In this document: positions 1 to 53,847 of the stretch, in pieces
Numbering within the stretch: position 1 is the stretch's first letter
Layout of the letters: each line of letters begins with the position of its first letter
Position numbers and translations under genes: made by a program
Notes under the pieces: model-generated
The model's input: only the letters and a program-made list of their open reading frames with translations
The model's database searches: none
Told to the model about the DNA's origin: nothing
DNA from: Candidatus Nitrosocosmicus agrestis
GTDB lineage: Archaea > Thermoproteota > Nitrososphaeria > Nitrososphaerales > Nitrososphaeraceae
DNA length: 55,381 nt
Direction: 5' to 3'
NCBI RefSeq assembly: GCF_008389435.1
Contig: NZ_VUYS01000023.1
Location: forward strand, 1 to 55,381

Positions 1-204
1 CTTGAACCAAGAGATGGAATTGGTGGACACTGTCTACCAAAGGATACAAAGATGTTTATCAATTCATCTAACACAATGAAGAGCAAGATACTTCAAGCTG
101 CCATGGAAATTGATGAGGATTATAGGGTTTATTTCCATAACTTTGACGAGTCAAAAGAGTCATGCAAGGAAACTAACTGCGAAATAATAAAGGCAATTCG
201 ATGA
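1..204 (+). CDS. Nucleotide-sugar dehydrogenase, C-terminal part (partial)
   Basis: The reading frame is open from the first base and stops at 202-204, so only the last 67 residues are present. The segment GIGGHCLPKDTKMF matches the active-site region of the UDP-glucose/UDP-ManNAc/GDP-mannose dehydrogenase family, in which a GGxCxPKD-type Cys forms the thioester with the substrate. The family oxidises a nucleotide sugar to a uronic acid using two NAD+. The tail after the motif is much shorter than in complete family members, which normally carry a whole UDP-binding domain here. The gene may therefore be C-terminally truncated, or the enzyme divergent. It sits 8 bases before the PIG-L deacetylase on the same strand, which suggests co-transcription. 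Confidence 0.6.
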   Translation, partial: LEPRDGIGGHCLPKDTKMFINSSNTMKSKILQAAMEIDEDYRVYFHNFDESKESCKETNCEIIKAIR

Positions 205-212
205 TTTCTTAA

Positions 213-857
213 ATGACTAGTGAAGGGAAATCAAAAAACATCCTCGTATTTGGGGCACATCCGGATGATTTAGAAATTGGTATGGGAGGCACCGTTACTA
301 AATTGTCGAGATTAGGGTTTAATGTAAAACTGGTCATTGCTACCCTACCCAATTTTACACAAAATGATAAAAAAGAAGAAAGGCGAATGGAGGCAGTTCG
401 ATCTTCAAAGGTAATGGGATGTCCGGAACCGGATTTCTTGGATTTACCGCCCGAACAAATGACGCATAGCAGATCATTAATTGGAACTATAGACAAGTAT
501 ATCCAAGATTATAAACCTGTGGCAGTTTTTACTCAATGGATTGGGGATTCTCACCAGGATCATCAGGCTCTTACGAAATCAGTAATTTCTGGTAGTAGGG
601 ATACTACTGATCTCTATATGTATGAGACTACTATTCCTGGTGGAATAACTGAGCAAGCTTTCAGGTCTCAACTTTTCATAGATATAACTGATTTTATTGA
701 TCCTAAGAAATCTGCTCTGGAATGTTTTGATTCCCAACAGGTCAGGTGCGGACCTATCTGGATAGATGCTATAATTGGTAGAGCTGCCTATAGAGGTTAT
801 CAACTAAATTGCAAGTATGCGGAGGCATTTGAAGTAATTAGAATCTCAAAATGGTAA
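213..857 (+). CDS. PIG-L (LmbE-like) family N-acetyl-sugar deacetylase
   Basis: A 214-residue protein of the PIG-L/LmbE fold. The zinc-binding signature is intact: AHPDDLE (His16, Asp18, Asp19) near the N-terminus and HQDH (His114, Asp116, His117) mid-protein. The family removes acetyl groups from GlcNAc-containing conjugates; members include BshB (bacillithiol), MshB (mycothiol) and GlcNAc-PI deacetylase. The length is normal and no signal peptide is seen, so it is probably cytosolic. It follows the nucleotide-sugar dehydrogenase tail by 8 bases and converges on an operon holding an ATP-grasp enzyme and a BshC-like protein. That context fits a BshB-like role, but the substrate cannot be read from the sequence. 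Confidence 0.88.
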   Translation: MTSEGKSKNILVFGAHPDDLEIGMGGTVTKLSRLGFNVKLVIATLPNFTQNDKKEERRMEAVRSSKVMGCPEPDFLDLPPEQMTHSRSLIGTIDKYIQDYKPVAVFTQWIGDSHQDHQALTKSVISGSRDTTDLYMYETTIPGGITEQAFRSQLFIDITDFIDPKKSALECFDSQQVRCGPIWIDAIIGRAAYRGYQLNCKYAEAFEVIRISKW

Positions 858-916
858 AATTTAACAAAAAGTTAAGGGATTGATCTAGAACATAAATTCA
901 TAAATTAATCGAGATT

Positions 917-1993
917 TTAGAAATAGTTTAACTTTTCTGATTTTAAACTCTTTATTTTAGTTCTGTTTGATCTAATTTTATTGTAATCTGCCAGATCCAC
1001 ATATGTCTCCTCCCAATATCGCATACAAACAAGTAGTCTATATTTTTTAATTTTTATTTTCTCTTTAAATAAAATATTTCTAATCATTATATCAGGTTCA
1101 TTTATGCCTGCGGTTGTTCTCATAGGACAGGATGCTGAGAATCGTGGATTTATTTCCATTATCTTGATTTTATTGTCATCAGGATCAATTCTAGTTTGAA
1201 TATTGAGGGGGCCAACTGCGCCGAGTTTTCCTACTACTTCCCTGCAAATTTTCTCTACCTTTGGATATCTGTCAATGAATGCTTTGTATGTTTGACCATG
1301 CTTTAATATTTTTTTTAAAGTAATGATTGACATAATTTTTTTGGTGTAATAATTAAGGGTAATACCTGTTGTAAACTCTAATGCATCATTCTGCAGGTAT
1401 TTTTGTACCATTGGTCTCCATCCTATCTTTTCAATAGTCTTTACGGCAAACTCAAGCTCATCCTTGTTACGTACAATGCTGAGAAGCTTCGAGCCAAAAC
1501 CTTCTCTGGGTTTTACAACCAATGGAAAATGATTTTTCTCCAAAAACAAATCTGCTTCCGCCGGCAAGCATGTGGGGATCGAATTAAGGTTGTTTTTAAT
1601 AAGAAATTCGTTAGTTAAATATTTGTCCCTACACATTTCTACAATATTCTCTTGACTGGTAATTACTTTGGCCCCAGTCCTATCCTCGAGCAAATCCTTG
1701 GTTTTACAAAGAATTGGAAGTTCTATGTCTGAGCCAATAAATATTACATGAATTTTTTCTTGTGAACATATATCTATTAAATTTCGTATGTAATCCTTTT
1801 GGTCCGGCTTCTTTACTATGGCAAATTTATCGCAGCGATACAGCCCCGCTGCATCATAGCTTATGTCAGTTCCCAAAATTTTGTATTTGTGTTGTTTTTT
1901 ACCTTCTGATCCGTTGTGATATTTTAATGATTTGATTATACCTTGAGCTACAATACCACCAGCCGATGTTACCATTACTTTAACAGTTTTCAT
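917..1993 (-). CDS. ATP-grasp ligase (carbamoyl-phosphate-synthase-like/PylC-like)
   Basis: A 358-residue ATP-grasp protein. The N-terminal third (MVTSAGGIVAQGI, then TDISYDAAGLY) is a Rossmann-like pre-ATP-grasp domain. The ATP-binding lysine lies in VVKPREGFGSK (Lys161), and the metal/phosphate residues in MEINPRFSAS (Glu280, Asn282, Arg284). Such enzymes join a carboxylate to an amine through an acyl-phosphate. It is the last gene of a minus-strand operon, PHP protein then BshC-like protein then this, with a 21-base gap to the BshC-like gene. The partner genes suggest that it ligates an amino acid or other acid to an amino-sugar product, but this is inferred. Many uncharacterised surface-polysaccharide clusters contain similar ligases. 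Confidence 0.85.
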   Translation of the reverse strand: MKTVKVMVTSAGGIVAQGIIKSLKYHNGSEGKKQHKYKILGTDISYDAAGLYRCDKFAIVKKPDQKDYIRNLIDICSQEKIHVIFIGSDIELPILCKTKDLLEDRTGAKVITSQENIVEMCRDKYLTNEFLIKNNLNSIPTCLPAEADLFLEKNHFPLVVKPREGFGSKLLSIVRNKDELEFAVKTIEKIGWRPMVQKYLQNDALEFTTGITLNYYTKKIMSIITLKKILKHGQTYKAFIDRYPKVEKICREVVGKLGAVGPLNIQTRIDPDDNKIKIMEINPRFSASCPMRTTAGINEPDIMIRNILFKEKIKIKKYRLLVCMRYWEETYVDLADYNKIRSNRTKIKSLKSEKLNYF

Positions 1994-2014
1994 TGATATC
2001 TTGGAAGAGAAATG

Positions 2015-3670
2015 TTAATTTATCAGGACGGGTTTTGTCAGATCGTTGTTTTTAACCAAATTACTGGACCACTCCTTTTCAGCATGCTCCAACCCTAAAT
2101 TGACCGCATAATCAATAATACATGATTTTAATTTTAACGCATTTTTAGATTTCTGAACATTTTTCAAAGTATCTTTTATTGCCCTCTGTTCCTGTTTGTA
2201 TCTAAACAACTCATCAAGCAATTTCCTTAAGCTTTCTTCGTCGTTGTATATTAGATTTCTCCTCGAAATGAGCGGTTTGATTCTATCTTTCAGATCATTA
2301 AATTCTTTGTTTTTTGCAGTTAGAAAATTTGACACGTTACTAATTGAATTTTCGGAAAGATAGTCTGATGCTTCTCTTTGACCAATACCTGAATAAACAT
2401 CCGTTCCTGCCCATAAGACCATAATTGGAAGCGACACCTTCAGATCATCAAACACCTTTTTCCCCACTATAGTGTATCCAATACTTCCACCTGTTCCAGA
2501 AATATAACCTGTAATTGATAATTCTCTTGATAAAAGCAACAAGATGGGGATCGCCCGGGGTGAAACCATTTGTATTTTGTCTTTGGGGATGGAAATATCG
2601 GAGGTCTTGCCGATCGCTAATGACAAATATTTTTTACATGATATGCACCGACCGATCAATATACATTGGTCATCGTTTACCATTATTTTTGAAGATGCCT
2701 TGCTGCCGCAAGAACAGTGGAGCCAGAGGGGTGAATGCTTATTAAGATTTGCGCTTACGCCAGTAAAAATTCCTCTCTCTCTAAAAAATGTTTCTGATTT
2801 GTCTAATGATTCTAAATAAACCTCATTATTTGACAATAAGAAATTATATCCTCGTTCAAACACTGAAGACAGATCCGATAAATTAACGAATATTGTATTG
2901 TAACCCCATATTTCATTTGCAATTCTGGACATTATTATTGAATTAAATTCTGCGTAGTTTTCTGCCACCGTTGCCGAATGTTCAACCAGTCTCCAGAATA
3001 CTTCAAAGCGCGAGTATAATTTTTTTAACTGGGGTTTTGACAAATTATTGCTGTTTTTTATCCAGTTATAAACAATATTTTCCCATGATTTTATTAAAGA
3101 ACGAGTGGGTGGTTCTGTTTTACTGGATATCTTCCATCGTTTAGTATCATTAATGGGATATCTCAAATCTAGAATTCCTGATGCACTACGAATGCTTGGA
3201 AGTTTGGCAATATGCATCCACTTATCGTCCATAAAATCATGGTCTACTACCAAGAATAGAGGAATTATCTTAAAGTCATTATCTTTGGAATGATCAGCTA
3301 AGGCCTGAAGGAGTACTATTTTTTTAAATACTCCACTAAAAGCAAACAAATTTGGTTGATGAATACCTACATAAATTTTAGATTTCTCATAATCTAATAA
3401 TTCGATCTGACCCAATATTTTGTCATTAAGAGTGCCAGCCCTATTGTGGAATTTTGTAACTGCATTTTTCAAGCGTTGCCTGTTTGATAATACCGCTTCA
3501 CTTGGCTGTGTCCAAGGATAGTCTCTCAAAGCATCAGTAGCTTGATCGAACTTTGACGGGATTGACTCTACAAATTTGCTGATATCCGAATCAGAGGAGT
3601 TCAGATATTTTGAAAATATTGCATTGAACCTGCTTTGACCGTCAATAGTGGCTACCGTGTTACTTCCCAA
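2015..3670 (-). CDS. BshC-like protein (bacillithiol cysteine-ligase family) with zinc-ribbon insert
   Basis: 551 residues, close to the ~540 of BshC. The core motifs line up with that family. GIHQPNLFAFSGVFKK (102-117) sits where BshC has its TGQQ-GLFGGPLYT motif. PLFLVVDHDFMDDKW (137-151) sits where BshC has VFWVATEDHDF. GYISGTGGSIGYTI (388-401) corresponds to AYVGGPGEIAY. The C-terminal ~100 residues are charged and helical, like the BshC coiled coil. BshC adds cysteine to glucosaminyl-malate. Between the two core halves lies a CxC-x20-CxxC segment (Cys319, 321, 342, 345) that looks like a zinc ribbon and that I do not recall from bacterial BshC. It is the middle gene of the operon PHP, BshC-like, ATP-grasp. 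True substrate unknown. Confidence 0.75.
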   Translation of the reverse strand: MGSNTVATIDGQSRFNAIFSKYLNSSDSDISKFVESIPSKFDQATDALRDYPWTQPSEAVLSNRQRLKNAVTKFHNRAGTLNDKILGQIELLDYEKSKIYVGIHQPNLFAFSGVFKKIVLLQALADHSKDNDFKIIPLFLVVDHDFMDDKWMHIAKLPSIRSASGILDLRYPINDTKRWKISSKTEPPTRSLIKSWENIVYNWIKNSNNLSKPQLKKLYSRFEVFWRLVEHSATVAENYAEFNSIIMSRIANEIWGYNTIFVNLSDLSSVFERGYNFLLSNNEVYLESLDKSETFFRERGIFTGVSANLNKHSPLWLHCSCGSKASSKIMVNDDQCILIGRCISCKKYLSLAIGKTSDISIPKDKIQMVSPRAIPILLLLSRELSITGYISGTGGSIGYTIVGKKVFDDLKVSLPIMVLWAGTDVYSGIGQREASDYLSENSISNVSNFLTAKNKEFNDLKDRIKPLISRRNLIYNDEESLRKLLDELFRYKQEQRAIKDTLKNVQKSKNALKLKSCIIDYAVNLGLEHAEKEWSSNLVKNNDLTKPVLIN

Positions 3671-3719
3671 ACCTTTTAATCAATAATATCTATTTAAGTT
3701 TCTTTTTAACTATATCTTA

Positions 3720-4346
3720 TTACTTTTCTATAAAATTTATCAAATGCATTATTCTATTAAAATCACCTATGTCTTCTAACCTGTGAGCATCACTTCCAAC
3801 ATGAAATTTTACTCCTAATTTGATAAAAATCTCTAAAAAATTCAAAGGAGGACGTATATATTTTGCATTAATCTCAATAATTTTATTGTTTTCGATTAAT
3901 GATTTGCCTATATTATAAATTTGTTCATCATCTAAGGTAAATTCAGCTTCGGGAGCCAAATGTCCGATAACATTGACACAAGGATTCTTAATTGCTTGAA
4001 GCAAGGAATTCAACCATATCTCCTTATCGTACTTTTTATGAAAACTCGCAATTATGAAATAATCATCGGAAATAAATTCATCAGGACAATCAATACTACC
4101 GTCAGGTAGAATCTTTGCTTCAAAACCTTTTAGCACTTGTATGTTTGTCACTTGAGAGTATTGATCCAACTCATTTAGATACCTTCTAGTCCATTCGGAT
4201 GATTTCCGTACATGTTCAGTAAAGGCTATTCTCTCAAGTTTTAAATCTTCTGCTCTTTTTATGACATTAGGTATGGTTAAATCAACGTCGCTGTGGTCAT
4301 TATAATTACAGTGTATGTGCAGATCTTCTTTCAGATTTATTATCAT
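3720..4346 (-). CDS. PHP-domain metal-dependent phosphoesterase
   Basis: 208 residues, one PHP domain. Expected metal ligands are visible: DLHIH (His10, His12), TEH (His45), Glu76, His103, His129 and GSDAH (Asp186, His188). PHP enzymes are trinuclear metal phosphoesterases; histidinol-phosphate phosphatase is the best-known stand-alone type. This protein could also act on a sugar phosphate. It is the first gene of the minus-strand operon, 49 bases before the BshC-like gene, and diverges from the second ATP-grasp gene across a 107-base AT-rich intergenic region. In this context a phosphatase step on a pathway intermediate is more likely than histidine synthesis, since no his genes are nearby; that is inference. 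Confidence 0.82.
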   Translation of the reverse strand: MIINLKEDLHIHCNYNDHSDVDLTIPNVIKRAEDLKLERIAFTEHVRKSSEWTRRYLNELDQYSQVTNIQVLKGFEAKILPDGSIDCPDEFISDDYFIIASFHKKYDKEIWLNSLLQAIKNPCVNVIGHLAPEAEFTLDDEQIYNIGKSLIENNKIIEINAKYIRPPLNFLEIFIKLGVKFHVGSDAHRLEDIGDFNRIMHLINFIEK

Positions 4347-4410
4347 TATTTTGTAAAAAAGTTACTAGGTTATCTTTAATAATTATTCTCAATTGTTTGC
4401 TTCAAAAATA

Positions 4411-4417
4411 TTTATAT
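4411..4417 (+). promoter_or_regulatory. Candidate TATA box for the second ATP-grasp gene
   Basis: TTTATAT lies 37-43 bases before the TTG start at 4454, in the divergent spacer between the PHP operon and this gene. It matches the archaeal box A consensus and would give a short leader of about 15-20 bases. The assignment rests on consensus and spacing only. Confidence 0.4.
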
Positions 4418-4453
4418 CATTAACAAAAACAACTGTATTAAAACGGATGCCGA

Positions 4454-5455
4454 TTGCGTAGAAAAATATCAACAGTATTAATACCCGGAGCCTCTGCACC
4501 TGCTGGAATTAATACAATCAAATCCTTAAGATTAGCAGAATTTCGAGGAAAGATATTATCTACTGACTCTAATAATTTATCGGCTGGTTTTTTCCTTTCT
4601 GACTTTTATGAGGTAATCCCAGAGGCAGAGGCAGATGATTATATCGAGGTATTACTGAATATTATAGATAAGTATAGTGTCGAGGTTTTGATGCCTTCAT
4701 CCGGCTATGATATTTTTCCATTTAGTGAACACAAATCAAAATTAAAAAAGCATGGAGTTTATCCAGTGGTAAGCGACAGAAAAATTCTAGAGATTTGTAG
4801 AGATAAGATTTACACCTTTAATCATTTGAGTAAGAACTTTGAACTGCCATTTACAACATTAAATCCTGAAGAAATTACATCATTTCCAGTTATAGCTAAA
4901 CCTAGATATGGTAAAGGTAGTAGGGATGTACTTCAAGTTAACGATAAATCAGAATTGCAATTTGTAAGCTCAAGATATTCTAATATGATTTATCAGGATT
5001 ACTTACCTGGCGATGAATACACAATCGATATAATGAGTGATTTTGATGGCAATCCGATCATTGCAGTTCCTAGAATCAGACTTCAAACAAAAAGTGGGAT
5101 TTCCACAAAAGGGAAAATTGTAATGGAACCTCAACTTATAGAGGAATCTATGAAAATAGTTAGAAAACTAAGAATTATAGGGCCATCATGCATCCAAATG
5201 AAAAAGGACAAACACGGTAATTTCAGGTTAGTAGAGATTAATCCGAGGCTGGGTGGAGGAACAATTTTTACTACTCTTGCTGGCGCTAATTTTCCAAAAA
5301 TGATAATAGATCTTGTTGAAGGCAAGTCTATAACCCAGCCGAAAATCTCAGAGATTACTGTCTTGAGATATTTTGAGGAGATTGTATTAGATGAGCGAAA
5401 TAAGATAAATTATGTCGGAAAGGATTTGGTTACTAGCAATACATGTAGAGTCTAG
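4454..5455 (+). CDS. ATP-grasp ligase, second copy in the cluster
   Basis: 333 residues with a TTG start; no ATG or GTG in frame lies upstream before a stop. The N-terminal nucleotide-fold-like domain begins IPGASAPAGINTIKSL, followed by an ATP-grasp domain with IAKPRYGKGSRD (Lys149), GDEYTIDI (Glu188) and LVEINPRLGGG (Glu261, Asn263, Arg265). The overall plan is the same as the ligase at 917-1993, but the sequences are clearly diverged, so they probably catalyse two different condensations. It is transcribed away from the PHP/BshC-like operon. The family includes carbamoyl-phosphate-synthase-like enzymes of polysaccharide and natural-product clusters. Substrates unknown. Confidence 0.84.
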   Translation: MRRKISTVLIPGASAPAGINTIKSLRLAEFRGKILSTDSNNLSAGFFLSDFYEVIPEAEADDYIEVLLNIIDKYSVEVLMPSSGYDIFPFSEHKSKLKKHGVYPVVSDRKILEICRDKIYTFNHLSKNFELPFTTLNPEEITSFPVIAKPRYGKGSRDVLQVNDKSELQFVSSRYSNMIYQDYLPGDEYTIDIMSDFDGNPIIAVPRIRLQTKSGISTKGKIVMEPQLIEESMKIVRKLRIIGPSCIQMKKDKHGNFRLVEINPRLGGGTIFTTLAGANFPKMIIDLVEGKSITQPKISEITVLRYFEEIVLDERNKINYVGKDLVTSNTCRV

Positions 5456-5798: not shown

Positions 5799-7277
5799 TT
5801 ATCTCCAGCCTGTTTTCTTTATGGTGATTGCTGCATATATCAACAGCCATGTATAAACATAAGTCGACAAGAGCGTGAAAAATGGCCTATATAGCCAATT
5901 GCGATCTCCTGGGTTACGTAGTCTGAAATCAACAGCGTAGATCATCCCCGTAAACAAAACACCCGCAAACCAAACAATTGGAGTTGTATAATCACCCATC
6001 AAAGGCAAAAATACTACAGTTGAAGCTACTATATATGGACGAATAAATTTCATTGCGGTTTGAAGATAATATAGAAGTGCTACATAAAACGGTCTCTTCC
6101 AATAAATTCCTCCTGCAGCAAATAGGCTTCTTATAAAACTCTTTCTCCAACGTACCTGCTGTTTTATTAATGAATCTAGGGTTGGCGGAACTCCAATATT
6201 TACACGAATATGAGAAGAGTATAATACTTTCCAGTATCCGTTGACTTCCATATCCTCAAAACTTGATTTAACCTCGATATGCCCTTTATCCTGACCTAAT
6301 GCCGCTGATGTGGAAGAATCGCCGGTTAAAATTGAAACTGATTGTTTGGTCTTATTGGTAGTGGCAGTGGAAGAAAATCCGGGTGGCCTGGTTGCAAGCA
6401 CATGGGCAGTCATTCTCCTGTCGGTCGCAAATTTAAATTCCATTCCCAAAAATCTATCTCTTGCCCACTGGGGTATAAAGTCCTGTATTGCATCTCTCCT
6501 GTAAAAGCTCAATGAACCTGCACAACAAGTCACCGATGAAAAAACGCTTTCCATCCCCTTTTGGGCACGACAGGCTCCGTCTGCATAAACATCTTGTAGC
6601 TTTTCCAAAAAGTGATCCCTAAAACCACCGGCATGGCGATTTTTTACTCTCCCATGACCGGTTATCGCACCCAATTGTCTATCAAAATAAAAGATTTGAA
6701 CTGCCTTCTCTGTAGCATCATGAGCCATATCGCAATCACTATCCATAAACGCATAAATTTCTCCTTTTGCTATTTTGCTAGCAGCTTCAATTGCCTTTTT
6801 TTTGCCGACACTTTTTTCCAAATGAACTATCCTAAGATTCGCAGATTTGTTTTGCTCTTTTAACCGATCCAAGATTTCACCTGTTTTGTCCGTACTTCCA
6901 TCATCAATAACAATAATCTCTTTATTTTCGTACGTCTGATCAAGACATGATTGGATGCAGTCAGTTATGTCAACTTCCTCATTCTTCACTGGCACTACAA
7001 TTGAAACAAGTGGTTTTTCTGTATCAGGGATTTTCTTATCAAAAACCTTCAGGTATGGATCTTTGTATCTAAAATACGAAATAAAAAGGATGTTGAAGAG
7101 TACAAAAGAGGTAAGAATGCTGTAAATGCCTACTCCTAAGTCAATAACGTAAAAAGTCAGATATGCTTTGGTAAACAATATCGTTAATACTGCTGACAAT
7201 AGCAATGCCCTAACGAACCAACGTTTATTATCTAATTCACTTTTTTTAACAAACTTGGGCACACTACTTAAAGCCAT
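5799..7277 (-). CDS. Membrane-bound processive family 2 glycosyltransferase
   Basis: 492 residues. Two N-terminal membrane segments (about 22-46 and 50-70) precede a GT-A domain: VSIVVPVKNEE (91-101), IDDGSTD (124-130, UDP-binding Asp), MDSDCD (178-183, the DxD metal site), TDRR (285-288) and QQVRW (373-377). Several more membrane segments follow (from about 396 to the end). D, DxD, TDR and QxxRW together mark processive synthases such as hyaluronan, chitin and cellulose synthase, which polymerise and export a glycan. A Ser/Thr-rich stretch (about 300-330) separates the TDR and QxxRW motifs. A frameshifted small gene follows. The likely product is an extracellular polysaccharide; the monomer is unknown. 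Confidence 0.88.
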   Translation of the reverse strand: MALSSVPKFVKKSELDNKRWFVRALLLSAVLTILFTKAYLTFYVIDLGVGIYSILTSFVLFNILFISYFRYKDPYLKVFDKKIPDTEKPLVSIVVPVKNEEVDITDCIQSCLDQTYENKEIIVIDDGSTDKTGEILDRLKEQNKSANLRIVHLEKSVGKKKAIEAASKIAKGEIYAFMDSDCDMAHDATEKAVQIFYFDRQLGAITGHGRVKNRHAGGFRDHFLEKLQDVYADGACRAQKGMESVFSSVTCCAGSLSFYRRDAIQDFIPQWARDRFLGMEFKFATDRRMTAHVLATRPPGFSSTATTNKTKQSVSILTGDSSTSAALGQDKGHIEVKSSFEDMEVNGYWKVLYSSHIRVNIGVPPTLDSLIKQQVRWRKSFIRSLFAAGGIYWKRPFYVALLYYLQTAMKFIRPYIVASTVVFLPLMGDYTTPIVWFAGVLFTGMIYAVDFRLRNPGDRNWLYRPFFTLLSTYVYTWLLIYAAITIKKTGWR

Positions 7278-7702: not shown

Positions 7703-10300
7703 TTATAAGGTAAAATACTGTGCTTTGGGATGGTGCACCACAATGGCGGCAGTCGAATATTCGGGATCTATCTGACCACTTTCCGTTAAAGTCATACCAT
7801 TGAGTGAAGGGTTAATTAACTTCCATACCATAAAGTGTTGGGCTATATCAGGACAACTTGGATATCCCCAACTGTACCTTAAACCTCCGCCTGACTCTTT
7901 TAAATTTAATTCTTCTTTAATTTTGAAATTGATCATATCTGCAAGTGCCTCTGTTGATTCCACAGCAAGTCCATGCAGGTAATAAGCATCCGTATATCGG
8001 CCTTGTTGATTCCATTCTTCTATAAGCTTGGCTACTTTCTGTCCCATTGTTACCGATTGAAATGCTACAAAGTCGTCATAATCGGAATCAAAGTAGTCTG
8101 CGAGACAAAGGTGTTGCTGATTAGAAGACCGGGGAAATTCAAACTTGAGCTCTATTTCTTCTCCTTTCTCATTAGTATATTTGACTAATAGGTCATTATT
8201 TCCAACTTTTCTGCATTTGAAATAGCCATACACCGCCTGGGGGTCGAATAGGTTCTCTTGTATTACTTTTAATTTCCATTCTTCAAGTAAAGCATCAAAA
8301 TTCTCTTTCAAATCCGACGCGGTTTTCCCTCTAACACCCCACGACAATACAAAGAGAGATTTTTTGTTAAGATATGTCCAAATCTCGTTTAAATCAAGTT
8401 GCTTATTTGTGAACCTATAAATTTTGTTTAAAGAGGGGGGTATTGGTTTATTTCTGACAGGTTTGACATCGCTGTTCATTTGTTGTGCTTCTTTGCTTTT
8501 TGAATTTTCATATTTTTTCTCCTTCCATTTAGAGAGTTTTTCATACCAAGTAGACATAAACTGTTCTTTCTGTTCTCCCATCAGACTATTCATTATCTTG
8601 AGCCCTTCAAATGCTGTTTTACAATAAAAGATACCCGGTCGGTAAATTTCTTGCTCCCCTATACCCTTGGCAATTCTGTTGATGTAATCACTGTTAATAG
8701 CAGCCCCACCGCAAAGAACAGGAATTTCAATTTTATTCTCTCTAACAAAGTCTGAAAATAATTGCATTTGCTTAGAAGTTGAAACCAGGAGAGCAGAAAG
8801 ACCAACGGCATCTGCTTTTACCTCTTTAATCTTGTTAATGATGGTTGGAATTGGAACCTGCTTTCCCAAATCGTGTACCTCATAGCCGTTGTTGACAAAA
8901 ATAGTTTTGACCAAATTCTTTCCTATGTCATGTACGTCGCCATAAACGGTACAAAGGACTAATTTTCCTTTGCTAATTCCTTCCTGTTTAATTAGATATC
9001 TTTCGAGCTCAGCAACGGCCGCCTTCATACATTCAGCTGATTTTAATACGAATGGCAGTATTAATTCCCCAGATCCAAACTTGTCACCTACCTCTTTCAT
9101 CGCAGGCAGGAGGACTTCATTAAGAGTTTCAACCGCGGCTTGATGAAGCTTTTCTTTGTCCCCTATTAATTCAATCTTTTCTACCCCGTTACTTGAAATA
9201 TTTTTCACTTTTTTCACCTCTGCCTCTAATATCTTTTTGGATGAAATGGATAGAGCTACATCATTCTCAATGCCTTCTTTTATTCTATTTACTATCCTGA
9301 AGTAACATTTCTTGTCGGCATTCCAAGCCGGATCTATTTCCATACTGCTGGAAGGTTTGACCATCTCGCCAGCGGTACGTTTTCCATTACTCGTTGTGGT
9401 AAAGTGAGAAATTAACTCCGATAGTGCATTAGATTGTGTATTAAAAATCAAATCTTCGCATTTGCTTTTTTCGGATCCACTTATCTGAGGATATGGAATT
9501 ATGTCCTTGGGATTGATAATGACTGTATCTAAACCATTCTTAATTGCATGATATAGAAAAACAGAGTTTAAGAATTTCCTTGCGTTTGCGGGCAAACCAA
9601 AACTCACGTTACTCAATCCAAGTGTAGTAAGGGTTTTTGGAAATTTTTCTTTTACAAATTTAATCCCATTTAAAGTTTCAAAAGCAGAATTGATGTATTC
9701 TTCTTCCCCAGTGGCGAGGGTAAAAGTAAGGACATCAAAAATAAGTTGCCATGGCTTTATTCCTCTATCAAGTGCCTTTGAATGAATCAATCCAGCAACA
9801 TTCACTTTATCTTGCCAAGTCTTGGCCATTCCATGTGGTCCTATACACATCGAAATCGCAGGAGCTCCGTATTTTACCATGAGTGGCGCTATATCTTTAA
9901 ACCTGGAACCATCACCTTCTAGATTAATTGAGTTGATGATAGGAACACCAGGTATCTGTCGTAATGCCGCAGCAACAACTGCAGAATCTGTAGAATCTAT
10001 AACCAGTGGTGCCTCTATCTCTAGACTAAGCCTTTTTACTAGTTTCTGCATGAAAGATTTTTCATCTGACCGCTCGGTAGTTGCGACACAAACGTCAATA
10101 CAGTGAGCTCCATCTTCAACTTGATACCTTGCAATTTCGATCAAACCATCAAAATCATCAGCTAAGACCATCTGTTTCGCTTTTTTTGAACCCTGAGAAT
10201 TAAGTCGTTCTCCTATTATTAACGGTCTTGGGTTTTGAAATAAATCTACGCAATTTAATGAGGAAGAAACTTTAGGATTATTATTGTATTTTAACTTCAT
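7703..10300 (-). CDS. metH: Methionine synthase, pterin/cobalamin/activation subunit
   Basis: 865 residues carrying three of the four MetH modules. The pterin-binding domain covers about 25-300 (IIGERLNSQGSKK and DVCVATTERSDE motifs). The cobalamin cap and binding domain cover about 330-570, with the signature DVHDIGK (His457, the lower axial cobalt ligand). The C-terminal SAM-dependent reactivation domain has RYSWGYPSCPD (808-818). The homocysteine-binding module is absent but is encoded by the preceding gene, 42 bases upstream on the same strand. The two proteins together would transfer a methyl group from a methylated pterin to homocysteine through cobalamin. The reactivation domain implies use of SAM and a reductant to rescue oxidised cobalamin. 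Confidence 0.93.
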   Translation of the reverse strand: MKLKYNNNPKVSSSLNCVDLFQNPRPLIIGERLNSQGSKKAKQMVLADDFDGLIEIARYQVEDGAHCIDVCVATTERSDEKSFMQKLVKRLSLEIEAPLVIDSTDSAVVAAALRQIPGVPIINSINLEGDGSRFKDIAPLMVKYGAPAISMCIGPHGMAKTWQDKVNVAGLIHSKALDRGIKPWQLIFDVLTFTLATGEEEYINSAFETLNGIKFVKEKFPKTLTTLGLSNVSFGLPANARKFLNSVFLYHAIKNGLDTVIINPKDIIPYPQISGSEKSKCEDLIFNTQSNALSELISHFTTTSNGKRTAGEMVKPSSSMEIDPAWNADKKCYFRIVNRIKEGIENDVALSISSKKILEAEVKKVKNISSNGVEKIELIGDKEKLHQAAVETLNEVLLPAMKEVGDKFGSGELILPFVLKSAECMKAAVAELERYLIKQEGISKGKLVLCTVYGDVHDIGKNLVKTIFVNNGYEVHDLGKQVPIPTIINKIKEVKADAVGLSALLVSTSKQMQLFSDFVRENKIEIPVLCGGAAINSDYINRIAKGIGEQEIYRPGIFYCKTAFEGLKIMNSLMGEQKEQFMSTWYEKLSKWKEKKYENSKSKEAQQMNSDVKPVRNKPIPPSLNKIYRFTNKQLDLNEIWTYLNKKSLFVLSWGVRGKTASDLKENFDALLEEWKLKVIQENLFDPQAVYGYFKCRKVGNNDLLVKYTNEKGEEIELKFEFPRSSNQQHLCLADYFDSDYDDFVAFQSVTMGQKVAKLIEEWNQQGRYTDAYYLHGLAVESTEALADMINFKIKEELNLKESGGGLRYSWGYPSCPDIAQHFMVWKLINPSLNGMTLTESGQIDPEYSTAAIVVHHPKAQYFTL

Positions 10301-10342
10301 TTTGTTATCACGGGTGATATTTCCATATATTTTAGGTGGAGC

Positions 10343-11317
10343 CTATAAATTAGATTCGAAAGACTTATGACTCTTCACAAATTGCTCCTTTTCATCCAAC
10401 ATGTATCGAAGTTTACGAATATGACTTGGTGAAGTACCACAACATCCTCCTATAATTCTTATCATTTCGTATTTGCTAACAAAGTCAGACAATTTTGCAG
10501 AAATTTCTTCTGGAGACATTAAATATTTTGCTTGGCCATTTTCATTAATGGGCATTCCCGCATTTGGCATTACTAAAATGGGGATCTCTTTTTGCTCGCA
10601 TAACCAGTGTATGCTAGGGGTCATTTCAATTGGACCAGTGGAGCAATTAAGTCCAAAAAGATCGACTCCAAGATTACTTAAGGTGGTATAAGCTGATTGT
10701 ACATTCGTCCCAAGGAGCATCTTACCGTATTGATCAAGGGTAACATTTGAAATTAAAGGAAGTGATTTTTCCAGTTTTTTAAATGCTCGAAAAATTCCTT
10801 CTACCGCCAATTTCATCTCTAAGACATCTTGTCCCGTTTCAATTAAAAGAACATCGCAACCTCCGCTGATTAAACCAATGGCTTGATCAAAATAAGCTTC
10901 TTCGATCTCATTGAGAGAGATATTTCCCAGATCTGAGTCATTAGAACTTGGCAAAAAACCTGTTGGTCCCATTGATCCGATGATATAGACTTCCTTGTTT
11001 GCTTCCTTCATGGCCTCCTTTGCAATTCTTGTAGCTTGTATGTTAAATTCCTCTGTTTTATACTGGTTTCCGAACTCCTTCAGCTTCAATGTATTGCTTC
11101 CAAAAGTATTAGTTTCGATACAATCGCAGCCTGCCTGGATATAATTTTGGTGAATTTGTTTTATCCATTCAGGTCTGCTAAAATTCAAGCTATCGTTAAA
11201 TCCTTCTTTATTGTCTAGATAATCTCTTTCTGTGGGTGAATACTTTTGAATTTCTGTACCCATTGCGCCATCGAATAAGAGGATTCTATCATTTAATTCA
11301 GTCAGAAAAGAATTCAA
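10343..11317 (-). CDS. metH: Methionine synthase, homocysteine-binding subunit
   Basis: 324 residues matching the N-terminal homocysteine S-methyltransferase module of MetH. It has DGAMGTEIQ (16-24), ETNTFGSN (68-75), and the zinc ligands Cys225 in LNCSTGP and Cys292/Cys293 in GGCCGTSP, which bind and activate homocysteine. The length corresponds to that module alone. It is the first gene of the operon and is followed after 42 bases by the pterin/cobalamin subunit, so the enzyme is split between two polypeptides. A BHMT-like or MMUM-like stand-alone methyltransferase would be possible for an isolated gene, but the neighbour makes MetH by far the better reading. Confidence 0.92.
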   Translation of the reverse strand: MNSFLTELNDRILLFDGAMGTEIQKYSPTERDYLDNKEGFNDSLNFSRPEWIKQIHQNYIQAGCDCIETNTFGSNTLKLKEFGNQYKTEEFNIQATRIAKEAMKEANKEVYIIGSMGPTGFLPSSNDSDLGNISLNEIEEAYFDQAIGLISGGCDVLLIETGQDVLEMKLAVEGIFRAFKKLEKSLPLISNVTLDQYGKMLLGTNVQSAYTTLSNLGVDLFGLNCSTGPIEMTPSIHWLCEQKEIPILVMPNAGMPINENGQAKYLMSPEEISAKLSDFVSKYEMIRIIGGCCGTSPSHIRKLRYMLDEKEQFVKSHKSFESNL

Positions 11318-48825: not shown

Positions 48826-50565
48826 CTATCGGAAGTTAAAAAAAGATTTCAGTTCTTTGTTTGATACTGAATCCACCCAAAGAAATTTTCTCTGTAATGT
48901 ACCTGTGTACATCTTTTTCCAATCCAACTCAACTAGATTCATCCAAGACTTGAATACACGTGGATCGATATAATTACGAAGGGATGTTCCCAGGTTATAT
49001 TCTCGAGTATCTTTTTGCAATTTGAGCTGAAATTCTAGTTTTTCAATTCTCTCAAGTAATCTTTGCCTTTGCTTATCGGTCTTCCATTTCCGGGAACTTA
49101 GATCAGATTTTAACTTTGAAATAGACTCTTTCTTCTTTAGGACAGAATCTTCAAATCTTTGATTAGTAAGGACTGAATTCGGATTTTTTGGATCAATTCC
49201 TTTTTTATGGTTACAAGTAATCGCGGCTTGAAGATTCGCGTATTTGGCTACATACGTCTTCTCAAACTCACTTGATGCTTTGTTAACTTTGATCGGGGGA
49301 TCCCTGAGCCATCGTTTAACTACGTTGGTAGCAATATAAGTCCTAAAAACCTTCGCAGTCAAACCTGGAACATTCTTTGAGTCAATGTTCCTTAAGAATG
49401 TATTTACTCTTAAAGAGTTTATATTATCAAATATGTGATCAGTCGCATTTTTGTTTTTGACAAACATCATGAGGTTATCATATAAAAGTATCTTTTCAGG
49501 GGTATCAGCTTCAATCGATTTTTGCCACGGGACACTATCTTTTCCTAAGAAATTAAATTCAATGGTTTTAGTCCCATTTGGTAATTCTCTGAAGATCAAA
49601 TGTTCTTTTCTTAGAGTGGTCGCACCTACCGTATCAGCCTCATCTGGATCTTTTTCATCTCCTACCCTCATGGCTAACTTTATGATGAGAAAACACACCG
49701 TAGCAATTTTTTTCTGATTAAGGTCCCTAGAACTCATCCTATGGATAATTTCCTTCTCTATTTTCAAGATGTATTTCTCAAGGTTCAATGCCTTGTCATA
49801 TTTTGCTTTATCGTAATTTTGACGAATCAAAGATGAATCATGAAGCCAAACATATTTCCGCTTTCCAGTCAAAGTCTCGATCCAGGATGCTAGCCATGTA
49901 GATGTATGATCGTGAATGATCTTTTGCCATGGTCCCTCTGGAACGCTCGCTTCTTCACCTAAATTCAATATTACATCTTGTGGACTAACCCTTGGTTTCC
50001 ATCTACCGCGTAATGGATGCTGACCTCTGCCCATAAAAAGGCCAGGAGGTTCCACGAGCCAGTTTGCGACATCTACCTCAGTACCATCAACGAAAGCTTT
50101 TCCATAAAAATTTTTTAACCTTTCTTTTTCAACTTTTTTTTCTAAAGATATTCTTTTCTTTACATCTTTTGGCAAATCCCTCCAATTTTGTTTCTCTTTT
50201 TCCTTAATTGCTTTTTCTTTATCGACCAGTTCATTGAATTTACTAAAATCTAAATCAGAAATTTGGTTTATCCTTGATCGAATATTATCAGGAAATAATT
50301 TTTTAAAATCCTGAATAAAATTTTGTTGAAAAACCGGATCATGCACGTAGTGTGTATCCTTTTTCTTAGACCATGCGTATACCAATTCTTCTTGATCCGC
50401 ATCCAATGTAATCCTTTCACCTTTAATTCTGAACTCTAAGCCCTTTGGCTGATAAATTGGTGGAAAGCAGACTCCGTTATGAAAGAGTGTATTCCATTTT
50501 CGGTTCTCTTTGTTTTTAATGTTTTGCTCAGATTTATCGTCAGAAGAAATCGAAATGGAAGTCAA
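48826..50565 (-). CDS. DNA topoisomerase type IB
   Basis: 579 residues, the eukaryote-like TopIB found in Nitrososphaerota. The N-terminal core (FPPIYQPKGLEFRIKGERI, then WLVEPPGLFMGRGQHPLRG) wraps the DNA. The catalytic part contains ALRVGDEKDPDEADTVG-type AMRVGDEKDPDEADTVG and KVFRTYIATN (active-site Arg). A coiled-coil linker follows, and the C-terminal LGTSLRNYIDPR carries the nucleophile Tyr532. It relaxes supercoils ATP-independently. It precedes a Nudix-fold gene by 9 bases on the same strand. Confidence 0.97.
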   Translation of the reverse strand: MTSISISSDDKSEQNIKNKENRKWNTLFHNGVCFPPIYQPKGLEFRIKGERITLDADQEELVYAWSKKKDTHYVHDPVFQQNFIQDFKKLFPDNIRSRINQISDLDFSKFNELVDKEKAIKEKEKQNWRDLPKDVKKRISLEKKVEKERLKNFYGKAFVDGTEVDVANWLVEPPGLFMGRGQHPLRGRWKPRVSPQDVILNLGEEASVPEGPWQKIIHDHTSTWLASWIETLTGKRKYVWLHDSSLIRQNYDKAKYDKALNLEKYILKIEKEIIHRMSSRDLNQKKIATVCFLIIKLAMRVGDEKDPDEADTVGATTLRKEHLIFRELPNGTKTIEFNFLGKDSVPWQKSIEADTPEKILLYDNLMMFVKNKNATDHIFDNINSLRVNTFLRNIDSKNVPGLTAKVFRTYIATNVVKRWLRDPPIKVNKASSEFEKTYVAKYANLQAAITCNHKKGIDPKNPNSVLTNQRFEDSVLKKKESISKLKSDLSSRKWKTDKQRQRLLERIEKLEFQLKLQKDTREYNLGTSLRNYIDPRVFKSWMNLVELDWKKMYTGTLQRKFLWVDSVSNKELKSFFNFR

Positions 50566-53171: not shown

Positions 53172-53847
53172 GGCTCTGTTCAGTTAACGATAAGCCTATA
53201 GCTTGAAAGCATTCCATTTCTTTTATGCTTACTAGAAACAGAACGCCTTCAAAGTATGTATATTATGGGTTGCATTTGTACTTTTCAGGCCTATCCTTAA
53301 GGAAAGCCTCGGAAAGATTATCTCAGATATACAAGAGAAATCACGTTTTCTTTGCCAAAAGTGGAATTGGATTCAAAAGTACAAGCCTCAAAAGCTGAAG
53401 TCAACTAGAAGAAGAGTTCTAGAGTATATAATAGATGAGACCATGTTGAAGGTGGGATCAGAGTACATCTGGCTATGGATTGCTATCGAACCAAAAAACA
53501 AACAGATCCTCGCACTAACTATCTCAAAGGAGAGAAACATGTTTGTAGCTGAAAGATTCATTTCAGGTTTAGTCAAGATTCATGGAATTCATCCAGTTTC
53601 GACTGATGGAGGTACTTGGTATCCACTGGCCTGTAGATTCTTAATTCTCGATCATCACATTCATTCCTCTCTGGAGAAAAGTCTGATTGAAAGAAAGATG
53701 CAATACATAAAAGACAGAACGGAAAGTTTTGATGATTATTTTCCCTGTAGAATAAAGAATTGCAAGTTGAAGCACGTAAGTAACTGGTTGAATATGTTTT
53801 CAGATTATCATAACAAGGAGGTGAACGACGCTTAAGTTAACAGCGCC
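53172..53847 (+). mobile_element. IS6-like insertion sequence, copy 3 (least decayed)
   Basis: Left end GGCTCTGTTCAGTTAACGA (53172-53190) and right end CTTAAGTTAACAGCGCC (53831-53847) are inverted copies with small changes. The interior holds one transposase gene with a single frameshift. At 676 bp it is a little short. The two flanking 8-mers are not the same, so no target duplication is visible. Confidence 0.75.
53221..53835 (+). pseudogene. IS6-family transposase with one frameshift
   Basis: The first part reads YYGLHLYFSGLSLRKASERL to about 53358. The frame then shifts and continues WNWIQKYKPQKLKSTRRRVL and on to the stop at 53835. The DDE catalytic residues are visible: IIDETMLKVG (first Asp), VSTDGGTWYP (second Asp) and IERKMQYIKDRTESFDDYF (Glu). 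The 130-codon ATG frame at 53443-53835 is only the C-terminal two-thirds. Apart from the frameshift it looks intact, so it is the youngest of the three copies, or the frame could be restored by programmed shifting, which is less likely. Confidence 0.75.

Follow-up and report, generated by a model that had tools for sequence, protein, structure and literature searches.

What does an archaeon do with a relative of BshC? In bacillithiol synthesis, BshB deacetylates GlcNAc-malate and BshC then couples cysteine to the product (PMC5372718). Relatives of both enzymes are encoded together in positions 1–5455 of contig NZ_VUYS01000023.1 from Candidatus Nitrosocosmicus agrestis (assembly GCF_008389435.1). 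The window (the whole stretch of DNA analyzed, 55,381 nucleotides) is the start of one contig of a 3.22-Mb, 99% complete genome. The initial annotation, made from the sequence alone, had read a BshC-like gene, a PIG-L deacetylase gene, a PHP gene, two ATP-grasp genes and the tail of a nucleotide-sugar dehydrogenase gene as a possible pathway to a cysteine- or amino-acid-capped amino sugar, either a cytosolic thiol buffer or part of a surface glycan. We hold with moderate confidence that PIG-L exposes the amine of a hexosamine on a glycan or glycolipid, that the BshC-like protein N-acylates this amine, probably with an amino acid, and that the first of the ATP-grasp ligases extends the product. 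Pfam and equivalog profiles, together with intact catalytic motifs, located all of the named genes where they had been called. With protein lengths in amino acids (aa), the features are as follows.

1–204, plus strand: C-terminal tail of a UDP-glucose/GDP-mannose dehydrogenase homologue, truncated by the contig start (PF00984, 26.1 bits)
213–857, plus strand: PIG-L de-N-acetylase, 214 aa (PF02585, 71.4 bits against a cutoff of 28.2; BshB1 equivalog TIGR04001, 101 bits)
917–1993, minus strand: ATP-grasp 1, 358 aa (NF009402, 304 bits against a cutoff of 218)
2015–3670, minus strand: BshC-like protein, 551 aa, putative amino-sugar N-acyl ligase (PF10079, 34.7 bits against a cutoff of 27)
3720–4346, minus strand: PHP-domain hydrolase, 208 aa, PolX-PHP/YcdX-like (PF02811, 33.5 bits against a cutoff of 26.4)
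4454–5455, plus strand: ATP-grasp 2, 333 aa, divergent from PHP (PF15632, 88.1 bits)
5799–7277, minus strand: GT2 glycosyltransferase, 492 aa (PF00535, 108.6 bits; TIGR03937, 124 bits against a cutoff of 422)

The linkage between the deacetylase gene and the BshC-like gene is the strongest result of the analysis. A scan of approximately 85,000 species genomes, using patterns specific to the archaeal BshC-like family and not seeking ordinary BshC, returned 43 loci, all of them archaeal. Of these, 32 also have a PIG-L gene nearby, and several of the remainder are short contigs. The two genes are on the same strand and touch, overlap or are separated by at most 135 bases in Nitrososphaera, Bathyarchaeota, Methanomethylicus, a Euryarchaeota metagenome-assembled genome (MAG), Thermoplasmata, Hadesarchaea and Aenigmarchaeota. 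By a rough estimate from the few PIG-L genes per genome, such adjacency would be expected by chance in well under 1% of loci. The pairing seen by the initial annotation in a single window is conserved across archaea. Conservation also extends to the block as a whole, as its order (dehydrogenase, PIG-L, ATP-grasp 1, BshC-like, PHP and ATP-grasp 2) is kept in the genus of the window and, within the reach of the contigs, in at least three others. The BshC-like proteins of the genera that keep this order are 42–72% identical, and an order conserved over genera shows that the arrangement is not due to chance.

The BshC-like protein is predicted to have the BshC fold. Its same-genus orthologues score 36–38 bits against PF10079, slightly above the window copy, while the BshC equivalog TIGR03998 is not reached (22.4 bits against a cutoff of 265.8). 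Searching the Protein Data Bank (PDB) with a profile of the archaeal family gave one significant protein, BshC (4wbd, E = 2e-4), and alignment of the family with three bacterial BshCs by hhalign gave 97.2% over 319 columns (E = 3.8e-11). An AlphaFold model made from 30 archaeal sequences was confident (pLDDT 91.3, pTM 0.90), and its top Foldseek match in the PDB, spanning the full length, was Bacillus subtilis BshC (4wbd, E = 7.6e-15, probability 1.00, TM 0.59, 585 columns), followed by class I lysyl-tRNA synthetase (LysRS; 1irx, E = 3.6e-7, probability 1.00, TM 0.36–0.40). WbqC (PF08889), a family suggested by the HQPN motif, was discarded, as Pfam gave no match to it for the BshC-like protein (at an E-value limit of 0.1) or in the genome.

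In common with bacterial BshC (PF10079/TIGR03998, 4wbd), the archaeal proteins have the full-length fold, the QQ/HQ and DHD motifs (HQPN at residue 104 and DHDF at residue 143 in the window copy) and a PIG-L-family deacetylase as partner. They differ in that HQPN replaces QQAG, that PQER is found in none of 45 archaeal members and that a four-cysteine ribbon, CxCG...CxxC (residues 319–345), is inserted in 41 of the 45 by a strict pattern. The archaeal proteins also lie on a long branch, forming one clade with a support of 0.98 that is separate from the three bacterial BshCs, lack BshA as a companion and are usually encoded in glycan or amino-sugar loci. Within Nitrososphaeraceae the distribution of the gene is patchy; one genome of this family (G056) encodes two divergent copies (L057 and L058), each in a different glycan gene setting. 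A 2020 review listed mainly Asgard archaea as carriers of BshC homologues and interpreted these as a sign of possible bacillithiol synthesis (PMC7278568). The present family, found in soil ammonia-oxidizing archaea without BshA, is distinct from those homologues, and in the literature on Nitrosocosmicus, Nitrososphaerales and archaeal thiols we found no paper that describes it.

Whether the block acts as one pathway was answered by phylogenetic profiles of 61 Nitrososphaeraceae genomes. Every genome with ATP-grasp 1 also has the BshC-like gene (29 of 29; Fisher P = 2e-13, a value that is indicative because related genomes are not independent). PHP and ATP-grasp 2 are both present in 42 of the 61 genomes, and among genomes without the BshC-like gene PHP was found in 14 and ATP-grasp 2 in 15. 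The dehydrogenase–PIG-L pair is likewise independent of the BshC-like gene and occurs in genera that lack it. The block thus consists of three separable modules, namely a BshC-like/ATP-grasp 1 core, dehydrogenase–PIG-L and PHP–ATP-grasp 2, which adjoin in one order in genera g1, g6, g9 and g10, as far as the contigs show. The transcription units in the window are dehydrogenase–PIG-L, a convergent PHP–BshC-like–ATP-grasp 1 unit, and ATP-grasp 2 divergent from PHP. Because the latter two modules exist in the absence of the BshC-like gene, the single five-gene pathway of the initial annotation was rejected. For the core, the annotation survived the outcomes that it had named as fatal (no co-occurrence in relatives, a predicted structure outside the BshC family or capsule genes accounting for every member), none of which came true.

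Catalytic motifs are complete in PHP, ATP-grasp 1 and ATP-grasp 2. Both ATP-grasps belong among the PRK12767/ATPgrasp_Ter ligases (PDB 2pn1; l-amino acid ligase 3vot), from which ATP-grasp 1 stands apart in being confined to genomes with the BshC-like gene, and the closest solved structures to the PHP protein are PolX and YcdX. Full-length orthologues of the truncated dehydrogenase are present in relatives (L041:6430–7386, L040:6246–7349, L051:1–1068 and L126:7569–8510). In the orthologues of three genera the NAD and central domains (PF03721 and PF00984) were found and the C-terminal domain PF03720 was not, and the homologue in L041 retains the catalytic stretch GGHCLPKD; a free nucleotide sugar may not be the substrate of this PIG-L-linked protein without PF03720. 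Divergent from dehydrogenase–PIG-L in L041 (5011–6306), with equivalents in relatives, is a gene resembling archaetidylinositol phosphate synthase (NF040950, 156 bits against a cutoff of 180), which suggests that an inositol-lipid role is possible for the pair.

The window PIG-L carries intact AHPDD and HQDH motifs, and the PDB chains closest to it come from an LmbE-related protein, from BshB1 and from diacetylchitobiose deacetylases. It resembles BshB1, BshB2 and other PIG-L proteins (PF02585; PDB 2ixd and 6p2t) in family, catalytic motifs and position beside a BshC relative. It differs in scoring below both BshB equivalog cutoffs (TIGR04001, 101 against 182.5 bits; TIGR04000, 30.6 against 195 bits) and in falling within a dehydrogenase-linked clade of the PIG-L tree. 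In Nitrososphaera, the PIG-Ls in direct contact with the BshC-like gene belong to a different clade, and the tree gives no support to an ancestral partnership between the BshC-like protein of Nitrosocosmicus and the PIG-L beside it.

The genes surrounding the BshC-like gene point to glucosamine-type acceptors, mostly glycans. In Nitrososphaera, the BshC-like/PIG-L pair adjoins PelF (156.8 bits against a cutoff of 100), an epimerase resembling GalE and a multi-pass membrane protein that matches no Pfam family. PelF, a GT4 enzyme, is the likeness to Pel polysaccharide genes; the block in the window differs in having no PelF, the one gene of the Pel operon that was sought. Another locus contains a UDP-sulfoquinovose synthase (591 bits against a cutoff of 575) with an adjacent GT2, and GT2/GT4 clusters with DUF1616 surround the gene in Bathyarchaeota. 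GlmS, a luciferase-like protein and a DegT aminotransferase stand beside it in two archaeal genomes, and an archaeal GlmU stands beside the pair in one Euryarchaeota MAG (L110). In the window itself, the GT2 gene at 5799–7277 encodes a PgaC/NodC-like protein that scores below the PgaC and NodC cutoffs; synteny ties the gene to the block both in the genus of the window and in locus L103.

From the established features, namely the gene families, the predicted BshC fold, the linkage of PIG-L to the BshC-like gene, the strict dependence of ATP-grasp 1 occurrence on that gene and the setting among glycan genes, we infer an acylation reaction, its amino-acid substrate and use of ATP, the order of the steps, the surface location and the scaffold. 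PIG-L would strip acetate from a GlcNAc-type residue to leave a free amine. By analogy to BshC and class I synthetase folds, the BshC-like protein would bind ATP together with a carboxylic acid, which is most likely an amino acid, and form an amide between this acid and the free amine. ATP-grasp 1 of Nitrososphaeraceae would then either extend the product by a further carboxylate or amino acid or provide the acyl donor. The acceptor would most likely be on a surface glycan or glycolipid, rather than malate as in bacillithiol. PHP–ATP-grasp 2 and dehydrogenase–PIG-L, separate modules that stand beside the core in several genera, would probably act on the same glycoconjugate. MshC, the mycothiol cysteine ligase, is a relative of class I cysteinyl-tRNA synthetase and transfers an aminoacyl-adenylate to glucosamine. 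It would be the mechanistic analogue of the BshC-like protein; it differs in that no sequence match between the two was seen, the resemblance to tRNA synthetases being at the fold level only.

Can the product instead be a thiol? Bacillithiol itself is unlikely in this organism, as no BshA, BshB equivalog, YpdA or Brx reaches its cutoff: the absence of BshA, noted by the initial annotation for the window, extends to the whole genome (best score 70.7 bits against 273.7), the best YpdA score in the genome is 54.8 bits against 339.9, and BrxA/B had no match there. Bacillithiol proper was therefore rejected. A cysteine-capped glucosamine conjugate analogous to bacillithiol or mycothiol, built on a carrier other than malate and serving as a cytosolic redox buffer, would account for the BshC fold together with a BshB-like deacetylase and for the pairs that adjoin GlmS or GlmU in non-glycan settings, and ATP-grasp 1 could extend such a molecule. 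The missing BshA, YpdA and BrxA/B, the location of BshC-like loci chiefly in glycan clusters and the patchy distribution inside one family speak against it, as do ergothioneine genes, which represent another thiol route and have been reported for ammonia-oxidizing archaea (PMC7554672). We regard this conjugate as unlikely and do not favor it over glycan capping. The choice left by the initial annotation between thiol buffer and surface glycan has thereby shifted: the cytosolic thiol has become less likely, with no redox partner above cutoff, and an amino-acid-capped amino sugar on a glycan is favored by gene neighborhoods that, across archaea, consist chiefly of glycan or amino-sugar genes.

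The archaetidylinositol-phosphate-synthase-like gene beside dehydrogenase–PIG-L in relatives would fit a glycolipid head group, in which the substrate of this pair is an amino sugar linked to archaetidylinositol, comparable to GlcNAc-PI for eukaryotic PIG-L, and the BshC-like core decorates that head group. The synthase-like protein is, however, divergent and below its cutoff, and in the loci read no such gene stands beside the BshC-like/PIG-L pair of other archaea. We rate the head group as somewhat less probable again than a thiol. It is improbable, to a further degree, that the six genes are unrelated neighbors, three modules juxtaposed by slow rearrangement around a BshC-like protein with a different, non-acylating role. 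That PHP–ATP-grasp 2 and dehydrogenase–PIG-L are found without the BshC-like gene is what such a history would produce, but it leaves unexplained both the adjacency of PIG-L and BshC-like genes in many archaeal lineages and the 29 of 29 co-occurrence with ATP-grasp 1. Several observations do weigh against N-acylation of a deacetylated glycan hexosamine. Alignment of the BshC-like protein with the class I LysRS of the same genome by hhalign gave a probability of 0.15% and no sequence similarity, and sequence-level kinship was dropped in favor of likeness in fold only. In the genus of the window, the PIG-L next to the core is encoded convergently with it, and the clade of this PIG-L also adjoins the dehydrogenase where the BshC-like gene is absent. 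A PIG-L of the BshC-partner clade is encoded elsewhere in the genome (contig C18, L119:9282–9977), alone and next to a TackOD1-domain protein. As the two copies belong to different clades, the PIG-L that serves the core in this genome could be either. Finally, no obvious polysaccharide cluster surrounds the pair in L110 and in archaeon B6/Maxine3, so a soluble product is possible there.

Elsewhere in the window, methionine synthase is encoded in two pieces (7703–11317), a homocysteine-methyltransferase protein and a separate pterin/B12/activation protein. A eukaryote-type DNA topoisomerase IB (48826–50565) has three Pfam domains above cutoff, and an IS240-type DDE transposase-like fragment below the Pfam cutoff (53443–53835) is probably a decayed insertion element.

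More broadly, and as a tentative proposal that we rate a little short of even, amino-sugar N-aminoacylation may be widespread in archaea, with PIG-L and a zinc-ribbon BshC-like ligase of tRNA-synthetase-like fold replacing the acetate on the hexosamines of surface glycans or glycolipids by an amino acid. If so, bacillithiol synthesis would be one bacterial branch of a broader family of amino-sugar ligases. How BshC catalyzes its reaction is, to our knowledge, not settled, and a PIG-L-linked sister family in which HQPN is invariant and a metal ribbon is inserted offers a new handle on the mechanism. Labeling the archaeal genes 'bacillithiol synthesis' would mislead, because the family is separate and is found in ammonia-oxidizing soil archaea without BshA. 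For Nitrosocosmicus, in which a published study found no S-layer and for which it proposed an amino-sugar glycocalyx (PMC11559005), the block supplies candidate genes for that glycocalyx.

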